From: a virus
Direction: 5' to 3' (one strand)
Virus record (IMG/VR): IMGVR_UViG_3300037042_003402
Coordinates: 1 to 27,679 of that record
DNA length: 27,679 bases
A program made the translations under genes and the position numbers. Positions within the stretch are counted from its first letter, which is position 1. Each line of letters opens with the position of its first letter. A model generated the notes under the pieces. It was not told where the DNA came from. It worked only from the letters and a program-made list of their open reading frames with translations, and did not search any database. Positions 3,832-27,679 of the stretch are shown in pieces.

Positions 3832-4410
3832 ATGGAGAAAGGTACCTTGCAGTTGACGGTGCGTGGCACGATTGAAAGATGGCTCCCAGTCCCGGACCAC
3901 GACGGGTTATACGAGGTATCGAATCTTGGACAGGTGGTGTCTCTAGCTGACAGGTGGGGAAAAACGCGCAGGCTAATTTTACGGCCGATTGTCAACAACT
4001 GTGGGTATGGCTATGTTAATCTATATCGTGATGGCACATTTAGACACCACAAGATTCATCGACTCGTGGCCGCATGTTTTGTGCCTAGGTCGAAACCACA
4101 GCATAATGTTGTGCGCCATCTTGACGGGAATCCGTCGAATAACGAATGGTGGAACCTTGCCTGGGGGACAGTGCAAGACAATGTTGACGATCGGCAACGT
4201 GCCGGACACACACACAGCGGCGAATGGCATCGGTGCGCGAAATTGACTAACGTAGAGGTGCGCGCAATTCGACGGCTTCGCGCAGAAACCCCAAAGAAGT
4301 GGACATACAAAGCATTGGGTGACAAGTTCAGAGTGTGTCGGCAAACAGTCTGGAACATTGTGAACGATAGGAACTGTCGTAAAATACCACGCACCGAGGA
4401 GCATCTCTGA
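3832..4410 (+). CDS. NUMOD4-HNH homing endonuclease 1
   Basis: A 192-residue free-standing homing endonuclease. NUMOD4 spans about 13-60 (IERWLPVPDHDGLYEVSN, then GYGYVNLYRDG). The HNH nuclease follows with HRLVAACF (H76), VRHLDGNPSNN (H96, N100) and NLAWGT (N108). A C-terminal helix-turn-helix (TYKALGDKFRVCRQTVWNIV, about 159-178) should read target DNA. It sits 6 bases after the phosphoesterase stop, and its own stop overlaps the next start (TGATG, 4408-4412), so it occupies the operon without disturbing either neighbour. No role in phage replication is expected beyond self-spread. Confidence 0.92.
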   Translation: MEKGTLQLTVRGTIERWLPVPDHDGLYEVSNLGQVVSLADRWGKTRRLILRPIVNNCGYGYVNLYRDGTFRHHKIHRLVAACFVPRSKPQHNVVRHLDGNPSNNEWWNLAWGTVQDNVDDRQRAGHTHSGEWHRCAKLTNVEVRAIRRLRAETPKKWTYKALGDKFRVCRQTVWNIVNDRNCRKIPRTEEHL

Positions 4411-10400: not shown

Positions 10401-10697
10401 ATGACGAAATGTACGTGCGATGTTTGCGGAACTGAGATCGAAGCGGGGAAACTGTTTGTTGCCTGGCGCGGTAAGGATATCTGTGGTAACTGTGCTGATT
10501 CCATCGGTTATCTGTGGACCGGCAACGGAGCGTTCTGCGAGGATTGCGGCAAAACCTCGGACGAACATCCGCACGATGGCTGCAAGTGGACATGGAATCG
10601 AGGCAAGGACGGCTGGGTAAATAAAAACCTCATCGTCCACGAAAGCCATGTCGCTACTGACGTTTCGGAAGAGAACAATCAAAATGTTTCAGAATGA
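10401..10697 (+). CDS. Small treble-clef/zinc ribbon protein
   Basis: A 98-residue protein, MTKCTCDVCGTEIEAGK onward, with three CxxC pairs (CDVCG, CGNCAD, CEDCG) plus a late Cys and two His (DEHPHDGC). This suggests two zinc sites. The acidic tail is probably flexible. GGGAGA precedes the ATG. It overlaps the next HNH gene by 14 bases. The function is unknown; such proteins often bind nucleic acid or RNA polymerase. Confidence 0.75.
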   Translation: MTKCTCDVCGTEIEAGKLFVAWRGKDICGNCADSIGYLWTGNGAFCEDCGKTSDEHPHDGCKWTWNRGKDGWVNKNLIVHESHVATDVSEENNQNVSE

Positions 10698-11403
10698 AAC
10701 AAACCATCTCGGCTGTTTTGTCGGCGGTGTCGTTGAGGAGTGGCGACCAATCCCCAATTACGAGGGGCTGTACGAAACATCGAATCGTGGGCGGATGGTG
10801 TCGTTGCGAGCTAACCGTGGAAAAATGCGGAGAAAGATTCTGAAGACACCTCCGGGCAATAGGGGGTACTTGCAAGTCAACCTGTATCGCGACGGGAAAC
10901 CCAGGGTACACAATGTGCATCGCTTGGTCGCCATTGCTTTCCTGCCAAAGCCACCAAATTGCGATGTGGTTCGCCATCTGGATGGCAATCCGCGAAACAA
11001 TAATTTGGAAAATCTAGCCTGGGGCACGCAGAAAGATAATGTTGACGATACTGTTCGCTGTGGCCGGACCCCAAAAGGAGAGCGGCACTGGAACAGCAAT
11101 CTTAGGGACGAGGATATTCTTGAAATCCGACAATGGGATGCGGTGGGAATACCGCGCAAAGATATCGGCGAGAACAAGGGGATCAGCCGATCGGAAGTAG
11201 GAAACATAGCAACCGGCCGTTCCTGGAAGCATCTTGGTGGTTCTCTGGCCCACCCCAGGTATGAACCCCCAAACGAAGCGGACATACGAGAAGCTCTCCG
11301 GCTCCGCGCGAAGGACCCAAAGAAATGGACCTACAAAGCATTGGGCGATAGATTCAAACTTTCTAAGAGCGCAATCTGGCGATTTATGCACAGGATTACG
11401 TGA
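10684..11403 (+). CDS. NUMOD4-HNH homing endonuclease 4, with two C-terminal HTH modules
   Basis: A 239-residue homing endonuclease. NUMOD4: EEWRPIPNYEGLYETSNRGR and GYLQVNLYRDG. HNH: HRLVAIAFLPKPP, VRHLDGNPRNNNLENLAWGT. Two different DNA-reading modules follow: DEDILEIRQWDAVGIPRKDI with NKGISRSEVGNIATG, and WTYKALGDRFKLSKSAIWRF. The last matches the single module of copy 1, so the gene looks assembled from shared parts. The ATG at 10684 has GGAAGAG upstream. A Vsr-like nuclease gene follows after 40 bases. Confidence 0.91.
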   Translation: MFQNETNHLGCFVGGVVEEWRPIPNYEGLYETSNRGRMVSLRANRGKMRRKILKTPPGNRGYLQVNLYRDGKPRVHNVHRLVAIAFLPKPPNCDVVRHLDGNPRNNNLENLAWGTQKDNVDDTVRCGRTPKGERHWNSNLRDEDILEIRQWDAVGIPRKDIGENKGISRSEVGNIATGRSWKHLGGSLAHPRYEPPNEADIREALRLRAKDPKKWTYKALGDRFKLSKSAIWRFMHRIT

Positions 11404-17709: not shown

Positions 17710-18047
17710 TGTCAACAAAGAATATCAACCGGGCAATCGAAAAACAGGCACGCTTTCTCGCTTACTCGACGCGCCTGGGCAATCCAGACGTTGTCAGAAT
17801 ATACTGGTTCCCGGACAACGACGAGGTGAGGCTTATTTCTCTGACAGATCGGACACCGCAGGACCATGACGACAAGGTGTGTCCGTTCTATTTTCGAGCG
17901 TCGCCAGAATATCATCTGCACTACGTATCCGCAGTCGCCATGATCCGAGTCGACGACTTCGGAAAGCTCAGGCTACCAGACGGTTGGGGCAACTGGGACA
18001 ATGCTGTTGAGTTGGTCGAGTCAATCCTTGGCGGAGGAGGAAAGTAG
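17709..18047 (+). CDS. Hypothetical protein
   Basis: A 112-residue protein, MSTKNINRAIEKQARFLAYS onward, with aromatic-rich middle strands (VRIYWFP, CPFYFRASPEY) and a Gly-rich end. No family recognised. Both ends are coupled: TGATG with the Cas4-like gene and TAGTG with the next HNH gene. A strong GGAGGAGG run lies at its 3' end and serves the following gene. Confidence 0.7.
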   Translation: MSTKNINRAIEKQARFLAYSTRLGNPDVVRIYWFPDNDEVRLISLTDRTPQDHDDKVCPFYFRASPEYHLHYVSAVAMIRVDDFGKLRLPDGWGNWDNAVELVESILGGGGK

Positions 18048-18838
18048 TGAGCGTTTCTGGCAGCTTGGCTCTTACGATATGCGGAGTGATCGAGGCGTGG
18101 CTTCCTGCCGTTGGTTACGAGGGAACCTACGAGGTTTCGGATTATCGGAGGGTGCGCAGGGTAGCGCCTGGCCATGGCACCTATGTCGGAAAAATATTGT
18201 CGCCATGGATTCACCGGGATGGTTGTCCGATGGTATCTCTGTCTCTTGGCGGGAAGCGAACTAACCGTAAGATTTCCAACCTTGTTGCCGACGCTTTTCT
18301 CCCCCCAAAAAGCTCAACAGACCAAGTCCTTCGACATTTGAACGATGATCCGACAGATAACCGAATCGAAAATCTGGCGTGGGGAACGTACTCTGACAAC
18401 ATGGCAGATTCGATGCGCAACGGCAATTTTCGCGCCCCTGGGACGCGGGGGTCTGCGCACGGAATGACAAAGCTGACAGATGAGAAAGTCGCAGCGATAC
18501 GTCGACAGGACGCAGATGGCGTACCCCATGCCACGATCGCTATACAACACGGTATTGCGACAGGGTCGGTCTCCAAGATTGTAACCGGCCGCACTTGGGG
18601 GCACATAGGCACGGGGGGCATCCGGGCTCCTAGAAGCCCCAGAGGGTCTGACAACGGGAACGCGAAACTGACCGACGATGATGTTCGAGAAATTCGGCGT
18701 CTTCGCGCAACAGACCAGGAGAGATGGACATATCAAGCATTGGCCGACAAGTTCGGCATATCTTTTGGGGGAATTCGTCACGTCGTGCGGCGAGATTCAT
18801 GGGGGCACGTTGCCACGGAGATAAAAGATGTTAAATAA
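18047..18838 (+). CDS. NUMOD4-HNH homing endonuclease 6, with two C-terminal HTH modules
   Basis: A 263-residue homing endonuclease, the largest of the six. NUMOD4: EAWLPAVGYEGTYEVSDYRR. HNH: NLVADAFLPPKSS, LRHLNDDPTDNRIENLAWGT. Two helix-turn-helix modules follow: KLTDEKVAAIRRQDADGVPH with HGIATGSVSKIVTG, and KLTDDDVREIRRLRATDQER with WTYQALADKFGISFGGIRHV. The first histidine before LVADAF is Asn, so nuclease strength is uncertain. The start is GTG at 18047 (TAGTG with the previous stop) with GGAGGAGG upstream. Its end overlaps the polymerase start by 11 bases. Confidence 0.91.
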   Translation: MSVSGSLALTICGVIEAWLPAVGYEGTYEVSDYRRVRRVAPGHGTYVGKILSPWIHRDGCPMVSLSLGGKRTNRKISNLVADAFLPPKSSTDQVLRHLNDDPTDNRIENLAWGTYSDNMADSMRNGNFRAPGTRGSAHGMTKLTDEKVAAIRRQDADGVPHATIAIQHGIATGSVSKIVTGRTWGHIGTGGIRAPRSPRGSDNGNAKLTDDDVREIRRLRATDQERWTYQALADKFGISFGGIRHVVRRDSWGHVATEIKDVK

Positions 18839-21122
18839 TAATTATGTACCACTTCACGTACATAGTCATTACTCCTTACTCGACGGATTGCCTTCACCCA
18901 CACAAATCGCACGCCGAGCAAAGGACCTGGGATGCCGCGCCGTTGCTCTCACGGATCATGGAAACATCTCTGGAATCGTAGAGTTTGATACAGCTTGTCG
19001 CCGATTGGGGATCAAGCCCATATTCGGGATCGAACTGTACGTCTGCCGTCATGACGCCACGATAAAATCGAAGGATAACGGCAAGCCATATCACCACCTG
19101 ACCCTTCTGTCTACCACGCAAGACAGCCTACAGAGGCTGATGGCTATCGTGAGTGCCGCCAATCGAGAGGAGCACTTCTACCACAAGCCCCGGCTGGACC
19201 TAGATCGGCTTGCGGAGTTTGTAGGACCAGACAGTGGCATCCTGTGCCTGTCTGGGTGCATCGCCGGTGAACTGAGTGCGTCCCTATTCGAGAATCTGAA
19301 CGATGCCTGCTCCACCGGGCAACTCGACGGAGCCACGATAAATAATGTCCATCAGTTGCTCAAGCCGGACTGGCGGGACATTTCTGCCAGAATCGTCGAG
19401 AGATACGTTAAAGTATTTGGCAACAACAACTACATGATCGAATTGCAAACTGAGGGTATGCTGGCCCAGGATGTGTGCGTTGGATGCCTGCGTGAAGCCG
19501 CCAAGGCCCTACAGATCAAAAGCGTCGCTACCCAGGACGCGCACTATTGTTTGACGACCGATGCTGTTGACCAGCGCATCCTTCTGTACGCCCAGATGCA
19601 CACGACCGCCGACGAGCAGGACCGACTGAAGGCCGAGGGTGGCGACACCATGGCGTTCTTTCACATGGATACGTTCCACATCCCGACGCTCGGGGAAATG
19701 CAAAAGACGTACACGCCAGCCGAAATAGAGGCCACATTAGAGATCGCTGATCGCGTACAGTCCCCAAAACTAGGGCGACCGCCAATGCTTCCTCATACGG
19801 CGAACTCCGACGCCACGCTGTATTCCCTGTGCATCGAGGGGGCCAAGGTTTTGTTGGCAGGCAAAACTCCCGATGAGAAAGCGACGTATTGGAAACGACT
19901 TCAGTACGAGATAGCCGTTATCAAGGATGCCAAGTTGGCAGACTACTTCCTGATCGTCAGAGATGCCTGTAAGTATGTGGACGGCCTGAAGCTGCCCCGT
20001 GGGGCTGGTCGTGGTTCTGGCGCTGGCTCTCTGGTGAACTATCTGCTGGACATCACAAAGATTGACCCATTGCTGTACGGATTATATTTTGAGAGATTCT
20101 ACAACGCATCACGAAACGTGCCACCGCACTTCAACGCTGGATCGATGCCGTTCCTGGAGTGGCTCGAAAAGGAGTTCGAGGCGACGCTTACGGCCGACAT
20201 GAGCGTGTACAAAGAGACGGTACGCCAGCGGGTGATCAAGGATCGGATGGGTGCATTATTGGCCCAGGCGTTCGAGATGCCAGACAGGATCAGGGCGGAG
20301 GCAGACTGGATAGACGCGCACTCTCCCAAAATGTGGATGTACCTGGCGCAACTGCCAGAATCCTGCGAGGAAAATTCATCGAACAGTACCATCGCCTATG
20401 CCATAGGTACTGTCGGAAGTCTGCCAGCGGGAGAACTCAAGACGGAAACAGGTGGCGTGAGCCTTCCCGATATTGACATAGACATAGGGGTGTACGCTCG
20501 TGACTTACTCATAACTTATTTGACGGGCAAGTGGGGTAGCGATAAAACTTGCCAGATTGCTACGTTCGGTAGACTACAGGGGAAAGCAGCACTCAAGGAG
20601 GTGTTTAGGACACAGCCGGATTTTGTGCGGCATCTGACAAAAGTTAGGATAGCCAAGGAGAATGGCGATATCGACGCCGAGATGGCCAGACCGATGGACA
20701 TCTGCAACGAGATCACTAAGGAAATTCCTGACGAAGCCGCTATTGCCGACGACCTACAAAAAATGGCAGAAGAATCTGGCGATGAAGACTATGGAATTCT
20801 ACGATGGGCCGTTGACAATGTCGCGTCTGTAAAGATCGCGTACAAATGGTACCAACCGCTCTTCGAGCAAGCCATGCGCATAGAGGGCACAAAGAGAAAC
20901 CAATCCAAACATGCTGCGGGAATTATTATCGCTGACAATCCGATAGAGCACTACGCGCCAATGGCTTATGATGTTCGTACTAAGACGCGAATGTGCGCCC
21001 TTGAGATGGCTCACGCCGAGAAGATGGGGCTGGTGAAATTCGATTTTCTTGGCGTCGTCGCGCTCGATAAAATCTGGGGTGTCCAAAACATGGTAAACGC
21101 AAGAGCGGAGATTGCCACATGA
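18828..21122 (+). CDS. dnaE: DNA polymerase III alpha, N-terminal part (PHP and palm)
   Basis: A 764-residue piece of a family C replicative polymerase. The PHP domain begins PLHVHSHYSLLDG (H10, H12, D19), then LTDHGN (H44), GIEL (E69) and TQDAHYC. The polymerase part has RGAGRGSGAGS (391-401), FERFYN (about 420), PDIDIDI (D548, D550) and GLVKFDFLG (D739), so all three catalytic aspartates are here. About 120 extra residues lie between FERFYN and PDIDIDI, where bacterial alpha has only a few. The gene stops after VNARAEIAT, just past the third aspartate; the rest of the enzyme is encoded at 23089. GGAGATAAAAG precedes the ATG. Confidence 0.93.
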   Translation: MLNNNYVPLHVHSHYSLLDGLPSPTQIARRAKDLGCRAVALTDHGNISGIVEFDTACRRLGIKPIFGIELYVCRHDATIKSKDNGKPYHHLTLLSTTQDSLQRLMAIVSAANREEHFYHKPRLDLDRLAEFVGPDSGILCLSGCIAGELSASLFENLNDACSTGQLDGATINNVHQLLKPDWRDISARIVERYVKVFGNNNYMIELQTEGMLAQDVCVGCLREAAKALQIKSVATQDAHYCLTTDAVDQRILLYAQMHTTADEQDRLKAEGGDTMAFFHMDTFHIPTLGEMQKTYTPAEIEATLEIADRVQSPKLGRPPMLPHTANSDATLYSLCIEGAKVLLAGKTPDEKATYWKRLQYEIAVIKDAKLADYFLIVRDACKYVDGLKLPRGAGRGSGAGSLVNYLLDITKIDPLLYGLYFERFYNASRNVPPHFNAGSMPFLEWLEKEFEATLTADMSVYKETVRQRVIKDRMGALLAQAFEMPDRIRAEADWIDAHSPKMWMYLAQLPESCEENSSNSTIAYAIGTVGSLPAGELKTETGGVSLPDIDIDIGVYARDLLITYLTGKWGSDKTCQIATFGRLQGKAALKEVFRTQPDFVRHLTKVRIAKENGDIDAEMARPMDICNEITKEIPDEAAIADDLQKMAEESGDEDYGILRWAVDNVASVKIAYKWYQPLFEQAMRIEGTKRNQSKHAAGIIIADNPIEHYAPMAYDVRTKTRMCALEMAHAEKMGLVKFDFLGVVALDKIWGVQNMVNARAEIAT

Positions 21123-21205
21123 TAGAGGGCGTGGTCATACCAATCTTGTTAGCGATTTCCCTGATGGTCGTGTCGTGGATTATCGCGGATGTTCTTTGTG
21201 AGTAA
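21119..21205 (+). CDS. 28-residue single-pass membrane peptide
   Basis: MIEGVVIPILLAISLMVV then SWIIADVLCE: one uninterrupted hydrophobic helix with a short acidic tail. The ATG overlaps the polymerase stop (ATGA, 21119-21122), and GGAG at 21107-21110 is well spaced. It is the first gene in the insert that separates the two polymerase parts. Small membrane peptides are common in phages; the role is unknown. Confidence 0.6.
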   Translation: MIEGVVIPILLAISLMVVSWIIADVLCE

Positions 21206-21207
21206 AT

Positions 21208-22008
21208 ATGATTTTCCTCAGCCCACGTTCCAATAAGCCCGGCGACTTCTGGAATTCCTGGCCGACCGGAAAGACAACATTCGGCGTACCCGACATCATT
21301 GCGCCAGACGACGTAGTCATCCATGACGTACACCTTGGTCAGCCGGAACATCCGTCGCAGACAATTGGGCTACTGTTGTCTAATGTCCACCGGGCTGACT
21401 GTCGCGATCCGAACGCCCTAGCCCGTATCGCGATTGGGCTACGAACCTGCGCCCGCATCGTAGTCCCGTCGTCCGACATATACTGGCCTGATTCTACGGT
21501 GCTACCATTGGGGGTAGATACAGATTTATTCAGGCCAAGAAGTAACATCGCAGAACTGAGAACGCTGTATGGATTGCCAGTGCAATATCCGGTAGGATTC
21601 TGGCGCGGGGATTTGGAATACAACTGCGGATACGACGATCTGATGCGATACGTCAGACGCAATCCCGGCACACACTGGGTTCTAGTGTTTGACCGGCTAT
21701 GCTATCCCGCGCGTTTACCGTGCCATCGCACCGTCTATTACGATGTGTCGCAAAATACGATGGCCGATCTTATGGGGTGTGCCGATTTCGGACTGAAGAC
21801 GGCTCGCACTGGAGGAACGACGACCGATATCGAAGCAGTGGCGTCTGGACTGGGGCTGATAAGCGTAAGATTGCCGAACAAGGACACACCTCCATTCAAT
21901 TTCACCCGAGAAGACGTTATAAGGTATGGGTGGGATCGTGCGCAGGCAATGAGTCGGTGGAGAAAATACCTGGAGGAATTCCGAGAATGTCTGCAAAGAA
22001 AAGCATAG
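21208..22008 (+). CDS. Glycosyltransferase-like protein (GT-B, GT4-like)
   Basis: A 266-residue protein. VLPLGVDTDLFRP is the classic link between the two Rossmann halves of GT4-type glycosyltransferases. GTTTDIEAVASGLGLISV matches the C-terminal E-containing donor-site region. The length is short for GT4 and the N-terminal half is reduced, so activity is uncertain. It lies in the polymerase gap, and a second, intein-bearing glycosyltransferase is at 25885. Targets could be modified phage DNA bases, host surface glycans or phage proteins. The 3' end overlaps the kinase by 22 bases. Confidence 0.72.
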   Translation: MIFLSPRSNKPGDFWNSWPTGKTTFGVPDIIAPDDVVIHDVHLGQPEHPSQTIGLLLSNVHRADCRDPNALARIAIGLRTCARIVVPSSDIYWPDSTVLPLGVDTDLFRPRSNIAELRTLYGLPVQYPVGFWRGDLEYNCGYDDLMRYVRRNPGTHWVLVFDRLCYPARLPCHRTVYYDVSQNTMADLMGCADFGLKTARTGGTTTDIEAVASGLGLISVRLPNKDTPPFNFTREDVIRYGWDRAQAMSRWRKYLEEFRECLQRKA

Positions 22009-22526
22009 TAGTTCTAGTGTCGCCTCCCGGTGGCGGCAAAAGTACTCTGGCCAGAAAACTTGCCAGAGACTACGGATATTTCATTGTCGATCTGGATGCA
22101 ATCGTGACGATGCTGCATGGAGATTATGCACTCTACAACGAGAGGTACGATCCAATATATAAGCAGATCGAGTGCGACATGGTCGAAGCGATTCTGAAAT
22201 CCGGAGGAACCGTTATCATCGATAGGTGCAACAACAAACGATCTACTCGACAAGTGTGGGTGCAAATCGGAAAGAAGCACAAGGCGAGAACCATGGCCCT
22301 CGTGATCGCTACCAGTAGCGTGAAGGCGATGAAGTTATCCAGGCAACGAGAAGACAAAGGGGTATCCACGAAGGATTGGAATGCCGTTATCGATTGTCGC
22401 ATTAAAGAGATGGAACCACTGGATACAAGCGAGGGTTTCGACAGTGTCGACATGCTAGGTTCGCGAGAAAATGCCATAGAGGCTCGGATGATTTGGCCAG
22501 GAACCAGTTTCAAGCCTCGTGCGTAA
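21987..22526 (+). CDS. P-loop kinase (AAA_33/Pnk kinase-like)
   Basis: A 179-residue kinase with Walker A VSPPGGGKSTLARKLA (11-26), VDLDAIV, GGTVIIDRCNNKRSTRQVW (Walker B-like with the D/R pair typical of polynucleotide kinase-like enzymes), and a lid-type segment SRQREDKG. Possible substrates are nucleic acid 5' ends, nucleosides or modified bases; sequence alone does not decide. The ATG at 21987 has GGAGG upstream and lies inside the glycosyltransferase end. Confidence 0.78.
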   Translation: MSAKKSIVVLVSPPGGGKSTLARKLARDYGYFIVDLDAIVTMLHGDYALYNERYDPIYKQIECDMVEAILKSGGTVIIDRCNNKRSTRQVWVQIGKKHKARTMALVIATSSVKAMKLSRQREDKGVSTKDWNAVIDCRIKEMEPLDTSEGFDSVDMLGSRENAIEARMIWPGTSFKPRA

Positions 22527-22551
22527 CAGTAATCTTGACCAGGAGGTGCCT

Positions 22552-23070
22552 GTGAGTATCGCTGGAGACGAGATAATTAGTAGGTCATGTTCACCGGGGC
22601 ACGACCTAACGATCGAACAAATGTATCGCATAAAAAACGACATTGTGTTTGCAAAGCAAAACGGAAAGGCTTCGCTTCGCCACAAATTCGTGAATATTGG
22701 GCACTATACGTCCGGATGGTCGATGTGTGCGGACGGCATATTGCGACGCAATATCATCCGAGATATCCGGCCTACTGGCACACAGCCGGTATGTAGAGTC
22801 ACGTTATTCGGCGGAGCAACCGTGCGCACAACGCTCGACAACAAATTCCCGACACCGATAGGAGAACGCACAATTTATGATATGTCGGCTGGCGATCTCC
22901 TGTTCGTGAAAGGTAGAGAAGGTCCTCGTGTTAGCACATCTGCCATAACTGCTATCGAACCGGACGGAGAAACGAATACATACGATGTGACCATGGATGT
23001 TCCAAACAACAATTTCATCACGCGGCGGTTGATTATCACTTGCGCAAAACTATCAGCCATGATGTTGTAA
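22552..23070 (+). CDS. Orphan Hint domain: stand-alone, apparently splicing-dead intein
   Basis: A 172-residue protein that is an intein without a host protein. After the start Met it begins SIAGDEII, the block A pattern with Ser in place of Cys1. Block B is VRTTLDNKFPTPIG with Asn97 where the catalytic His belongs, followed by MSAGDLLFVKG. Block F is NTYDVTMDVPNNNFI. Block G is LIIT before Cys164: the final His-Asn (or Gln) is missing. A nine-residue tail, CAKLSAMML, ends the protein. No endonuclease domain is present. The GTG at 22552 has a strong AGGAGG at 22541-22546; the in-frame GTG at 22519 is inside the kinase gene. It lies directly before the second polymerase part. Splicing is unlikely; a retained binding role or simple decay is possible. 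Confidence 0.8.
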   Translation: MSIAGDEIISRSCSPGHDLTIEQMYRIKNDIVFAKQNGKASLRHKFVNIGHYTSGWSMCADGILRRNIIRDIRPTGTQPVCRVTLFGGATVRTTLDNKFPTPIGERTIYDMSAGDLLFVKGREGPRVSTSAITAIEPDGETNTYDVTMDVPNNNFITRRLIITCAKLSAMML

Positions 23071-23088
23071 TAAGGGGGAAATACGCCT

Positions 23089-24633
23089 ATGTCGATCAAA
23101 TTCAAACGTTGCACATGCGAGGTAACGCCCGGCGCGTTCGACATACACAACATACCGCTGGACTGCAAGGCGACATGGGACCTACTGTGCTCTGGCCTAT
23201 CCATCGGTGTGTTCCAGCTAGAACGACCGCTAGGGCAGGAGTGGCTACGAAAAGTCAAACCACGCTCTATCTCAGAGCTTTCGGACGTGATTGCTCTGAT
23301 TCGTCCCGGAAGTTTGTCCTCTGGCCAGGCTGACGAATACGTTAGGAACAAATTCGATGGAGGTATGCGTAGAAGCAAACATGCCTGTCTCGACAAGATT
23401 CTGGCACGTACGTACGGCTGCTTGGTTTTTCAGGAAGATGTACTATCTATCGCGCGCGAGATAGCTGGATTCTCACTTACTTGGGCAGATACGCTAAGAA
23501 AAAGTCTAGGGAAAAAGTTACCAGCACTGATGGCCAAGTGCAAGAAGGAATTCATGGAGGGATGCGCGCGGGTAAGCACTGTCGACGCAAAACAAGCCGA
23601 AGAAATCTTCGGGTGGATTGAGAAGGGACAGCGCTATAGTTTCAACCGGTCACACAGTATCGCGTACGCGATGCTCGCGTTCCAGACCGCTTATTGCAAA
23701 ATACATTTTACAACAGAGTTTTTCGTACAAAGCCTCATCTTCGCTGCCAATAAATCCGACCCGATGGAGGAGAGATACATACTTATCCGGGACGCCCAGA
23801 ATTTCGGAATAACCATTAGACCGCCAGATACGAGACTCAAGAATTCAGACTTCATAATCGACCCGACGACAAGCAACGCCATCATTTTCGGACTTGCCCA
23901 TATCAAGGGGATCAGCGCCGCCACGATCGATCGGCTTATGAAACTATCGATGGGAACATGGGGACAATTCATAGCCGCGATTCCAGCAATCCGCAGAAAC
24001 TACGCCCTGGCACTCGTACAATCTGGGGCGTGCGACTGCTACGGATTGCCGCGAACGTACATGGCAAACGTCGTGAAGGCAGTGATCGACAACATCACGG
24101 ACCGAGAATCGGTAGCGCTTACCCCACTAGTCGAATCGTCGGGGGACATCTCGACGGCCCTTAAAACTTTGGCGGCTGGCGGTCATCTTGCGAGGCTAAA
24201 CAAAAATCGTCGCGCCGTTCTTGAGGGACTTGCCGAAACGCTGAGTATCCAGACCCCGGACACAACGAAGCAGAGAGCGCTCCTGGAGCACTGGTACCTG
24301 GGTGCCTCGGTGTCGTGCAGCGCTGCCGATGGGGTTATGGATGCGAATGACGTACAGCGTTGCTCTGATTTCGTCAAGATTCCGAACGGGAAGAGCCTCG
24401 ACTTGTGTGTCGTTATAGAGCGAGTCAAGATATCGAAGACGAGAAAGGGGCAGGCGATGTGCTTCCTGACGATTTCCGACTCGTCTGGTGGAATAGACCA
24501 CTGCCCAGTTTTTCCAGATGCCTATTCTACTTGCCAGGACAAATGTCAGCCGCAGGCTGTTATAGTACTAGGTGGAACGAAACGCAATGGGTCCCTCATC
24601 GTAGAGTCGATCCGAGAACTTGTTGGAACTTAA
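23089..24633 (+). CDS. dnaE: DNA polymerase III alpha, C-terminal part (fingers, HhH, OB fold)
   Basis: A 514-residue piece that continues where the gene at 18828 ends. FDIHNIPLDCKATWDLL (17-33) aligns with the region after the palm in bacterial alpha. Then come IGVFQLE, VIALIRPGSLSSG, YGCLVFQEDVLSIAREIAGF, LRKSLGKK and YSFNRSHSIAYAMLAFQ (fingers and palm-distal parts), a helix-hairpin-helix region, and an OB fold near the end (about 440-505). No intein C-fragment precedes the coding region; it starts with its own ATG and AAGGGGGA site (23072-23079). Together the parts cover a full alpha (1278 residues), so assembly without ligation is the simplest view. Confidence 0.92.
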   Translation: MSIKFKRCTCEVTPGAFDIHNIPLDCKATWDLLCSGLSIGVFQLERPLGQEWLRKVKPRSISELSDVIALIRPGSLSSGQADEYVRNKFDGGMRRSKHACLDKILARTYGCLVFQEDVLSIAREIAGFSLTWADTLRKSLGKKLPALMAKCKKEFMEGCARVSTVDAKQAEEIFGWIEKGQRYSFNRSHSIAYAMLAFQTAYCKIHFTTEFFVQSLIFAANKSDPMEERYILIRDAQNFGITIRPPDTRLKNSDFIIDPTTSNAIIFGLAHIKGISAATIDRLMKLSMGTWGQFIAAIPAIRRNYALALVQSGACDCYGLPRTYMANVVKAVIDNITDRESVALTPLVESSGDISTALKTLAAGGHLARLNKNRRAVLEGLAETLSIQTPDTTKQRALLEHWYLGASVSCSAADGVMDANDVQRCSDFVKIPNGKSLDLCVVIERVKISKTRKGQAMCFLTISDSSGGIDHCPVFPDAYSTCQDKCQPQAVIVLGGTKRNGSLIVESIRELVGT

Positions 24634-24645
24634 CAGGAGACAGAA

Positions 24646-25083
24646 ATGCCTAAGCCGTACGTTGTAGCAGTTGGTCGTCTTACCAAGGACCCAGAGGGCG
24701 GGAAGACAGGGGCCGGAGCAGAGTGTGCCAAGCTCTCGATTGCGTGCAATGGCCGCAAGAAGGACGACGTAACTTTTCTGAACGTCAAGGCGTTCGGGCA
24801 ATCGGCGACGTTCGTGCTTCAGTACGTCAAGAAGGGCGATACCATTATGGTTCGTGGGTCCCTTGAAATCTACAAGGTTCCCGACTCGAAGACCAGCATT
24901 CCATTCCTCAACGCAGACGACGTACAGTCGGTAGCCCGTGGTAGCGCCGACGGGAAGCCCGCCAACGCTGGCGGGAATCGGCCCACGCAGCCAAGTCGTC
25001 CTCCGCCTCCTCCTACGCCCCAACCGCAACCGCAAGATCAGCCGCAAGATTCGCAGTATGATGGGGCTGAAATTCCCTTCTGA
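24646..25083 (+). CDS. ssb: Single-stranded DNA-binding protein
   Basis: A 145-residue SSB. The OB fold covers about 1-105 (YVVAVGRLTKDPEGG, AKLSIACNGRKKDDVTFLNV, KKGDTIMVRGSLEIYK). A Pro/Gln-rich linker follows, and the C-terminal tip YDGAEIPF matches the acidic partner-binding tail of bacterial SSBs. CAGGAGA precedes the ATG. It coats ssDNA at the fork and should bind the polymerase, primase or nucleases through its tip. Confidence 0.92.
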   Translation: MPKPYVVAVGRLTKDPEGGKTGAGAECAKLSIACNGRKKDDVTFLNVKAFGQSATFVLQYVKKGDTIMVRGSLEIYKVPDSKTSIPFLNADDVQSVARGSADGKPANAGGNRPTQPSRPPPPPTPQPQPQDQPQDSQYDGAEIPF

Positions 25084-25090
25084 TACGTGT

Positions 25091-25191
25091 GCGGCGGCTG
25101 GAGCATGGCACCGTTAAGGTGTCCCCGGCCCGTTCGACTCGGGCTTAGAGCTTGGCGCAGGGTAGGGGGAGTTCAATTCTCCCCCCGCTGT
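25091..25191 (+). ncRNA. tRNA-like structured element with two T-arm-like hairpins
   Basis: The 120-base gap between SSB and the next gene can fold as a closed element. GCGGCGG (25091-25097) pairs with CCGCTGT (25185-25191), with two G-U pairs. Inside are hairpins GGCAC-CGTTAAG-GTGTC (25107-25123), GCCCG-TTCGACT-CGGGC (25128-25144) and GGGAG-TTCAATT-CTCCC (25167-25183). The last two carry the T-arm consensus GTTCRANNC. A GGCTGGAGCA stretch resembles a D-arm end. At 101 bases it is too long for a normal tRNA, U33 is lacking in the first hairpin loop, and no CCA is encoded, so it looks like a degenerate, composite or two-tRNA remnant. The last hairpin followed by GCTGTTT could also act as a weak terminator after SSB. 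Confidence 0.45.
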
Positions 25192-25204
25192 TTAGGAGAG
25201 ATGG

Positions 25205-25888
25205 ATGGCTGAGGAAAAACACTGCTACAAATGCCATAAGTTCCTACCGCTGATGGCGTTTCACAAGCATCCGAAGATGGCGGACGGCCATCTCAACAAG
25301 TGCCGCGACTGCACGAGGATTGATCGCAAGAAAATCAGCGATCGACTGGCGGGCACGCCGATAGTGGGCCGAACGACGATCACGCACAAGAAATGTCCGA
25401 GTTGTTTGCGCGACCTACCACTGGAGCATTTCTACTATTGCCCTACTGCTGCCGACGGTCATGAATCTTGGTGCGCGGAGTGCAAACAGGCGCAATCCAG
25501 GACCTATCGTAACGACCACCCCGATTTATACCAACAGTACTATAAAGCGAACAACGGTAAACCCGAAAGAAAGATAAAGTACGCTACATATAGGAGGAAC
25601 TGGGGAATCGTAGGTACCAAGAAGTATAATGCGCGACGCGCGGCCCATAGTGCCTTGAAGTCCGGCCTATTGCATCGAGAACCATGCTACTTCTGTGGGT
25701 CCACACGAGACATGGAAATGCACCATCCAGATTATTCCAGGCCGCTTATGGTATACTGGTTGTGCCGAAAGTGCCATCGTCGACTCGACGGAATGATGCG
25801 CACAAGCCGTGTCGCGTCTGAAATCCAAGAAGTAGACAAAATTACTAGCAGGTTAAGTCTCGTGATTTCAGGGAGACAGGCGATATGA
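25205..25888 (+). CDS. Zinc-ribbon and HNH endonuclease (endonuclease VII-like)
   Basis: A 227-residue protein with two similar zinc modules (CYKCHKFLPLMAFHKHPKMA with CRDC, and CPSCLRDLPLEHFYYC with CAEC) and a C-terminal HNH/treble-clef unit. The latter has CYFCG (C161, C164), EMHHPDY (H173, H174) and CRKCHRRLDG (C187, C190, H191). Phage proteins of this build are often called recombination endonuclease VII-like or HNH homing endonucleases. The first role would resolve branched DNA, the second would spread the gene; context with SSB allows either. AGGAGAG precedes the ATG. It is unlike the six NUMOD4 genes. Confidence 0.8.
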   Translation: MAEEKHCYKCHKFLPLMAFHKHPKMADGHLNKCRDCTRIDRKKISDRLAGTPIVGRTTITHKKCPSCLRDLPLEHFYYCPTAADGHESWCAECKQAQSRTYRNDHPDLYQQYYKANNGKPERKIKYATYRRNWGIVGTKKYNARRAAHSALKSGLLHREPCYFCGSTRDMEMHHPDYSRPLMVYWLCRKCHRRLDGMMRTSRVASEIQEVDKITSRLSLVISGRQAI

Positions 25889-27679
25889 GTAAGAGACGGA
25901 TTCTTTTCGTTGGTGAGGCCAGTTTTTTGGCTACGGGCTTCGGGGTTTATTACAACGAAGTCCTGAAGCGATTGCATAAGACTGGTAAATTCGAGATCGC
26001 AGAAATCGGAGGATACGCATCTGTAGACGACAATAGAATCCATGGAATACCATGGAAGTTCTATCCGACAATGCCAGCCCAAGGCGATCAGCAAGGAATC
26101 GATCGGTACAGATCATCGCCTACCGCCCAGTTTGGGGAGCACGCATTTGACAGCGCATGTTTGGAATTCAAACCAGACGTGACGTGCGTCGTGCCGGGCG
26201 CGCCAATTGAAACCACAAGCGGTCCGGTTCCAATCGAGCACATCAGCGTTGGAGACTACGTGCTCACCCATACTGGCGCGTTCAGGCGGGTGCGTAAGGT
26301 GTACGTCAGGCCGTACCATGGGGAGGTAGTTCGCATACTTCTTGAGTCGGACAGTGTTCCGATCAAGGTCACGCCAAACCACAAGCTGTTGGTTCTCCGG
26401 AACTGCGACAACAACCCCGAGTGGATAGCCGCATCATACCTAACCAGGTCGGATCGACTATTTCTGCCGAAGATGAAAGCGATCACTCCGGATGATTACA
26501 TCGACGTGTTGGATTACATCACGGATGACGTGGTCAGTAACCAGATCACCATCACGCACAAGACGGATATCGACCAACAGTTGCCGCGTCGATTGCTGGT
26601 AGATGAAGACTTTGCATACTTTCTTGGCTTTGTTTCTCGTCGATTGTGGCATCCTGCGGATTACGAATACTCTGCTGTGTACAATGTGCCGGACGACATC
26701 CGGCGCATCTACAACATGAAATTTGGCAGATCACTTTCCGGGAATAGCATCAAGTTTCGTGGCGCTCTTGTGCAATCGCTCTTCGTCGGGATGCTTGGCG
26801 GAAACAGGATACCAAGGGCGATCTATCTGTCCCCGTCGTGGGAGACCGCAAAAGCATTCGTTCGTGGCGTATTGTTGCGTCGCCTAAGCGTCGAGGACGT
26901 TGCCGGATCGGTGACATACAGCGATAGCAACGAATATTTCATTAGACAGTTGCGCAACATGCTTTGGCGCTTTGGGATTTGTGGCGAGATCAGCGGAGCA
27001 AAGAACAAGTGGGCGCTGACTTTTACGGACGAAAGTGCCGGAGTGATACTGGCAATCGCCAGCAACAAGCCATGCGAACCATTATGGCACGATCTTTCGC
27101 ACCCCGACTCACTAACAATTCGCACCGTCATCAAGGGGAAAGAATACTCTGGATTGGTTTACAATCTTGAGGTTGAGGGCGACAACAGCTATGTGTCAAC
27201 GTGCGCGTTGCATAACTGTGACATCAGAGACTACTGGATGTGCGAGTTTCAGGACCGAGCGCCATCGCGCCATCTATGGACGATGCTATGGATGCCCACT
27301 GTGGACGGACTTCCGCAAAAGGACCTATGGATCGATAGCTACAAGAAATGTGACCACATCCTGACCTACTCACAATTCGGATACGATGCCCTCCAGGATG
27401 CCGGTGTAAAAAATCTACTTGGTCTTGCATCGCCCGGTAGCGACCTGGACATCTTCAAGCCAGTCCCGGACAAGCGCGCCCACAAGAAGCAGTGCGGCAT
27501 TGATCCGGACGCATTGATTGTTGGAACTACTGCTCGCAATCAGTCTCGCAAACTGTTCTATGACCTGATCGAAGCATTCGCCGCATGGTATCACCAGACG
27601 CTCAGGACTAATGAAAAACTGGCGCGCAGAGCATTCCTGTACCTGCACACATCGTACCCGGATGTTGGTTACGACATCG
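25885..27679 (+). CDS. GT4-like glycosyltransferase interrupted by an intein (partial, runs off the window)
   Basis: The ATG at 25885 forms ATGA with the previous stop (25886-25888), and the frame stays open to the window end (598 codons). The N-extein (1-100) begins MSKRRILFVGEASFLATGFG, a glycosyltransferase Rossmann start, and ends KPDVT. The C-extein starts at C445 as CDIRDYWMCEF, then has DHILTYSQFGYDALQDAG, LASPGSDLDIFKPVP (the GT4-type linker) and IVGTTARNQSRKLFYDLIEA. Joining T100 to C445 gives a continuous KPDVTCDIRDYW. The acceptor is unknown: host surface sugar, phage protein or modified DNA. An intein at 101-444 must be removed for a normal fold. Confidence 0.87.
   Translation, partial: MSKRRILFVGEASFLATGFGVYYNEVLKRLHKTGKFEIAEIGGYASVDDNRIHGIPWKFYPTMPAQGDQQGIDRYRSSPTAQFGEHAFDSACLEFKPDVTCVVPGAPIETTSGPVPIEHISVGDYVLTHTGAFRRVRKVYVRPYHGEVVRILLESDSVPIKVTPNHKLLVLRNCDNNPEWIAASYLTRSDRLFLPKMKAITPDDYIDVLDYITDDVVSNQITITHKTDIDQQLPRRLLVDEDFAYFLGFVSRRLWHPADYEYSAVYNVPDDIRRIYNMKFGRSLSGNSIKFRGALVQSLFVGMLGGNRIPRAIYLSPSWETAKAFVRGVLLRRLSVEDVAGSVTYSDSNEYFIRQLRNMLWRFGICGEISGAKNKWALTFTDESAGVILAIASNKPCEPLWHDLSHPDSLTIRTVIKGKEYSGLVYNLEVEGDNSYVSTCALHNCDIRDYWMCEFQDRAPSRHLWTMLWMPTVDGLPQKDLWIDSYKKCDHILTYSQFGYDALQDAGVKNLLGLASPGSDLDIFKPVPDKRAHKKQCGIDPDALIVGTTARNQSRKLFYDLIEAFAAWYHQTLRTNEKLARRAFLYLHTSYPDVGYDI
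26185..27216 (+). mobile_element. Intein in the glycosyltransferase, with degenerate LAGLIDADG domain
   Basis: A 344-residue intein, residues 101-444 of the precursor. Block A is CVVPGAPIETTSG followed by HISVGDYVLTH. Block B is IKVTPNHKLLV (T163, H166). Block F is VYNLEVEGDNSYVS and block G is CALHN/C with the full His-Asn and a Cys nucleophile at +1. All splicing residues are therefore present and it should be active. The central region has two LAGLIDADG-like helices, DFAYFLGFVSRRL and AKAFVRGVLLRRLS, in which the acidic DG end is replaced by RR; DNA cleavage is probably lost. Block sequences differ clearly from the reductase intein, so the two were acquired separately. Confidence 0.88.

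Follow-up and report, generated by a model that had tools for sequence, protein, structure and literature searches.

A phage family C DNA polymerase encoded in two genes, with a break between palm and fingers that is shared across a large uncultured clade

The DNA polymerase III α subunit (DnaE) of an uncultured phage is encoded by two separate genes, αN and αC. They lie in IMG/VR virus record IMGVR_UViG_3300037042_003402, 27,679 bp in length and referred to here as the window. In the reading that we consider very likely, αN and αC are obligate subunits of the phage's own family C replicase, docked non-covalently and derived from a single ancestral break. αN provides the PHP domain, the palm with its three catalytic aspartates and the thumb, while αC provides the fingers, the helix-hairpin-helix (HhH) domain and the OB fold. 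The chain is interrupted in the palm-fingers linker, between the positions of E. coli α residues 580 and 581. We infer that the two chains fold apart and dock via the palm-fingers interface, which would rebuild a working active site. The genes and their relevant parts are as follows.

18828..21122, plus strand: αN gene (dnaE N-part), 764 residues; PHP, palm and thumb by Pfam, PDB alignment and AlphaFold2.
20109..20457, plus strand: variable insertion in αN, about 115 residues (about 428–543), modeled with low confidence.
23089..24633, plus strand: αC gene (dnaE C-part), 514 residues; fingers, HhH and OB by Pfam, PDB alignment and AlphaFold2.
23089..23166, plus strand: start segment of αC with CxC (C8, C10) and LDC (C26), specific to the split clade by sequence comparison.

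The two genes are in different frames, with 1966 bp between them. In Pfam, αN matches PHP (5e-38) and DNA_pol3_alpha (1.2e-58), and αC matches DNA_pol3_finger (7e-39), HHH_6 and, weakly, OB. The domain order of a family C polymerase of the DnaE type, PHP-palm-thumb-fingers-HhH-OB, is thus complete over two chains. All three catalytic aspartates (D548, D550 and D739) are present, and all are in αN, which ends 25 residues beyond D739. By sequence, αN covers residues 7–626 of Taq α, and αC covers 642–955 with a weak match at 1029–1102.

AlphaFold2 models of the single chains, built from alignments of clade members alone, have predicted local distance difference test scores of 87.6 for αN and 92.8 for αC. 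The αN model superimposes on E. coli α 1–580 (2HNH) with a Z-score of 37.6 over 562 residues. The αC model matches E. coli α 581–1074 (5FKU) with a Z-score of 21.2 over 458 residues; the root-mean-square deviation (rmsd) of 8.6 shows that its domains shift. Superimposing it on the fingers of 5LEW gives a Z-score of 22.1 and an rmsd of 3.1 over 314 residues. αC residue 14 pairs with E. coli α 581, so no essential part is missing, and in the models the two chains tile E. coli α 1–1074 without loss. This tiling places the break after the helix behind the third catalytic aspartate, in the palm-fingers linker. No region of αC matches E. coli α past 1074. The initial annotation of this DNA had described two separate α genes, the first ending just past the third aspartate and the second taking up where bacterial α continues. 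The open reading frames (ORFs) and the complementary alignments of both parts to bacterial α bear this out.

Scans for relatives yielded 80, 2 and 80 viral loci. Profile classification over all loci identified 146 with both αN and αC, a number that includes duplicates and overlapping fetches and dereplicates to 48–50 rows, and 91 unbroken genes. The break is at the same point in all 146 relative loci. The unbroken relatives that had been envisaged are absent from the split clade among the loci sampled; unbroken genes come only from bacterial DnaE or distant isolate-phage records. The split genes form one clade, with a support of 100 in the approximate likelihood ratio test (SH-aLRT) in a broad tree and 100/100 (ultrafast bootstrap/SH-aLRT) in a smaller bootstrapped tree. 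The break is ancestral, and the content between the halves varies. Although this layout is rare among isolates, as annotated, it is the rule in the large uncultured clade and has been kept through very deep evolution. Independent splits between palm and fingers may exist in other viral groups; a scan with L197, among the longest-branched split members, returned only close relatives.

The gap between the halves holds a gene for a DnaQ-like DEDDh exonuclease in 131 of 138 loci, with a stop codon overlapping the start of αC in 82 of 127. This position makes it probable that, in most of the clade, the three proteins are synthesized and assembled jointly. In many of the loci L016–L080 we also notice an ORF of about 62 residues that lies behind αN and ahead of the exonuclease gene. 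Other loci carry different genes, with names read from their sequences: a macro domain and a uracil glycosylase (UDG) in L001, and ThyX among others in L081. In L007, αN and αC are about 2 bp apart with nothing between.

The subclade of the window has no DnaQ-like gene between the halves. Here the distance from αN to αC is about 2 bp (L007), 1.1 kb (L001), 2 kb (window) or 5 kb (L013), 8–10 kb in most members and about 18 kb in G002, if circular. Both genes are on the same strand wherever both are seen. Since relatives with the same break carry other genes or none, the four-gene insert of the window is secondary, and the annotated idea that this insert split the gene does not hold. The glycosyltransferase, kinase and Hint genes of the window are secondary cargo, not the cause of the split. 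In this subclade the PHP site may proofread in place of the exonuclease. The window and 13 of 14 subclade members have the complete set of nine PHP metal ligands (HHDHEHCDH), and the exonuclease-bearing sister clade has mostly HHDHEHHDH. PHP proofreading is thus possible, judging from sequence; G003, G007 and G010, also of this subclade, encode an RNase_T-type exonuclease elsewhere in the record.

Apart from one gap, every split sequence retains the catalytic aspartates, and essentially all retain the conserved finger residues. In close pairs where it is measurable, the ratio of nonsynonymous to synonymous substitution rates (dN/dS) is 0.013–0.040 for αN and 0.009–0.056 for αC, with 0.115 in one more divergent αC pair. 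Both halves are under strong purifying selection. The palm family occurs in 27 of 28 records and the fingers family in all 28, with one gene set each; the exception is cut at the record end. In 21 relatives of 112–238 kb, a search that was positive in control genomes detected no family A (PolA) or B (PolB) polymerase, with families D, X, Y and others outside its range and contigs that may be incomplete. αN and αC are probably the phage's replicase. The reach of that search weighs against our reading, and so do two further points. Selection was measured in relatives only, the αN and αC of the window having no close relative (about 54% and 45% identity to the nearest). The correlation between the distances of αN and those of αC (r = 0.87, Mantel 0/2000) speaks for our reading, but as a sign of co-inheritance, not of contact.

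An assembly error, a frameshift or a decayed gene could in principle create such a break, and L113, a near-duplicate contig with an in-frame TGA in αN, demonstrates that such errors occur. We give this explanation practically no weight: the same break is found in 146 loci from many metagenomes with differing genes between, dN/dS is about 0.03, and new conserved residues appear at the αC start. It is also extremely unlikely that the halves become covalently joined, whether through trans-splicing of a split intein or through excision of an mRNA intron. A Hint-like gene does lie just upstream of αC in the window, and true inteins exist in the clade, in αC of L194 and L181 and in the gene at 25885 of the window. 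However, αN ends 21–47 residues past KFDxLG in all split loci measured, where an N-intein cannot fit, and a C-intein ahead of αC was not found, in agreement with the annotated lack of intein fragments at both ends. The αC inteins are in frame and at other sites, the gap reaches 10–18 kb filled with ordinary genes, and the Hint gene did not turn up among those relatives that were compared. With no intein halves and no Rfam intron match in 18000–25900, we rejected a split intein, a cis-intein and an intron at the break. An Rfam match to a human long non-coding RNA at 24229–24307 was below the gathering score and was dismissed.

Alternatively, the two products could have separate jobs, αN as a PHP nuclease and αC as a DNA-binding factor, leaving replication of the phage genome to the host polymerase. 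PHP domains can act alone as nucleases. The host clamp loader binds α past E. coli residue 1074, the very part with no counterpart in αC. On the other hand, the palm aspartate triad and the conserved finger residues are retained in essentially all sequences, αN is always accompanied by αC in records of sufficient length, and homologues of helicase, primase, SSB and UvsX are encoded in the window as well; separate jobs are very unlikely. Two obligate subunits assembling non-covalently, as the annotation had proposed, is the best reading of the pair.

How the first break arose is a different matter. dnaE may have been split by the entry of a DnaQ-like gene, alone or within a mobile element, with later loss of that gene in the subclade of the window. 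This origin has an appreciable chance of being right, though we lean against it. The DnaQ-like gene sits exactly in the break in the 131 loci, and ORFs resembling homing endonuclease genes break αN again in L118 and the L061 group. In contrast, L007, which branches as sister to all other subclade members, has adjoining halves with nothing between, and the clade root falls between both states, making gain and loss equal in cost. In L118/L012 and the L061 group (L119), the nuclease-like ORF lies inside the variable region of αN, leaving the polymerase in three pieces (L118:729–3720). αC carries in-frame inteins at two different sites (L194:9072–11987 and L181:8733–11021). Together, the second αN breaks and the αC inteins mark the polymerase of this clade as a repeated target of mobile elements. 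A mobile element as cause of the first break fits this repeated targeting but is not proven by it.

We notice residues specific to the split enzymes. αC of the clade opens with a short new segment bearing CxC, and it also has LDC; the two motifs occur in 92–94% of 141 split sequences and in 0% of 91 unbroken ones; the window numbering in this comparison counts five residues upstream of the start methionine. Unbroken enzymes have Asp or Glu in place of Cys26. C410 and C425 of αC are likewise split-specific (85–94% vs 0%), and C335 of αN is found in 99% of split and 20% of unbroken sequences. L007 αC lacks C8, C10 and C26. As a guess, the αC cysteines form a metal clasp. A fuller model, which we regard as tentative and rather unlikely as a whole, is an obligate two-subunit replicase in which a metal or structural clasp of αC (CxC and LDC, perhaps C410/C425) would stabilize αN docking. 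The αN-exonuclease-αC operon would co-translate the proofreader and the fingers subunit, and the subclade of the window would have given up the adjacent exonuclease and proofread by PHP.

The 1.97 kb between the halves in the window contain the four genes that had been annotated, the glycosyltransferase and intein matches being weak.

21119..21205, plus strand: ORF for a 28-residue hydrophobic (membrane) peptide, read directly from the sequence, with an ATGA overlap with the αN stop.
21208..22008, plus strand: glycosyltransferase-like gene; no Pfam match, weak NCBIfam glycosyltransferase match (E 7e-4).
About 21987..22526, plus strand: P-loop kinase, polynucleotide-kinase-like (AAA_33 8.5e-16; phrog_505 8.5e-15).
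22552..23070, plus strand: orphan Hint-like gene, start probably GTG 22552 after AGGAGG; weak Intein_splicing match (E 0.14).

Two intein hallmarks, Cys1 and the terminal HN, are missing from the Hint-like gene. It has one match in a phage collection (E 2e-9) and no relatives in viral contigs, and no significant match to the intein at 25885 of the window. That intein lies in frame within a glycosyltransferase gene (25885–27678), at about residues 101–444, and contains a LAGLIDADG remnant. This interrupted gene is missing in several relatives, among them L001, L004 and L008, and present in L003, L005 and L010.

The window as a whole is a replication module with ribonucleotide reductase, exonucleases, UvsX, DnaB helicase, DnaG primase, SSB and several HNH genes. 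Free-standing HNH/NUMOD genes are located at 18047–18838, 3832–4410 and 10648–11403, the first overlapping the αN start. The polymerase is split likewise in L200 and L201, contigs of metagenome-assembled genomes labelled Flavobacteriales and Lokiarchaeota, which are probably misbinned phage contigs. Two public 'phage' records, MT835885 (L085) and OQ572403 (L086), have dnaE in bacterial chromosomal surroundings; they are likely contamination and were left out of the phage evidence.

If our reading is true, a replicase broken between palm and fingers, and kept that way across a deep clade, would show that two chains can reconstitute the active site of a family C enzyme. The two parts would serve to study the palm-fingers interface and offer a natural split-polymerase tool, and the replication machinery would set apart a large phage lineage that has not yet been described.

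Bacterial Pol III α (E. coli 2HNH/5FKU, Taq 2HPI, M. tuberculosis 7PU7) shares its domain order and catalytic residues with αN and αC, aligned over α 1–1074. The present enzyme differs in its two genes, its CxC start of αC, the absence of anything past the OB fold and, in the subclade of the window, a palm insertion of about 115 residues. In the cyanobacterial DnaE pair, also encoded in two genes, intein halves rejoin the protein across a break at FNKSHS. Here no intein halves flank the break and FNRSHS is whole in αC, confirming the annotated distinction from that arrangement; nor is this a gene interrupted by a group I or II intron, by the same Rfam search. Phage replicases in two genes have precedents. 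Among actinophages, those of Microbacterium EF (PMC7302621) have a split DnaE. Gordonia phages BiteSize and Suzy and Rhodococcus phage MacGully have one as well. In these phages the break separates a first gene for the PHP part (about 310–345 residues) from a second one for palm, thumb and fingers; they fall outside the split clade in the tree, and the break described here is after the palm. Group 2.2 jumbo phages have a minimal split Pol III α, two stand-alone proteins thought to reassemble. Its NTP-binding and Mg/template-binding halves have no other Pol III domains and occur beside a family B polymerase (PMC7824862). In contrast, αN has PHP, αC has HhH and OB, and PolB was not seen in the 21 large relatives. 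In Aeromonas phage 25, the split T4-type gp43A/43B purify together and have activity (PMC2988022), but this replicase is of family B, and in Aeromonas T4-like phages the split is associated with a homing endonuclease or with a spacer that is not translated. These precedents show that some phages have split replicases and that such enzymes can be functional. In the open-access literature, the range of our search, we found no description of a break between palm and fingers in a full-length family C enzyme. Split α is thus already known with other breakpoints, and what is new here is the position of the break in a full-length family C enzyme.
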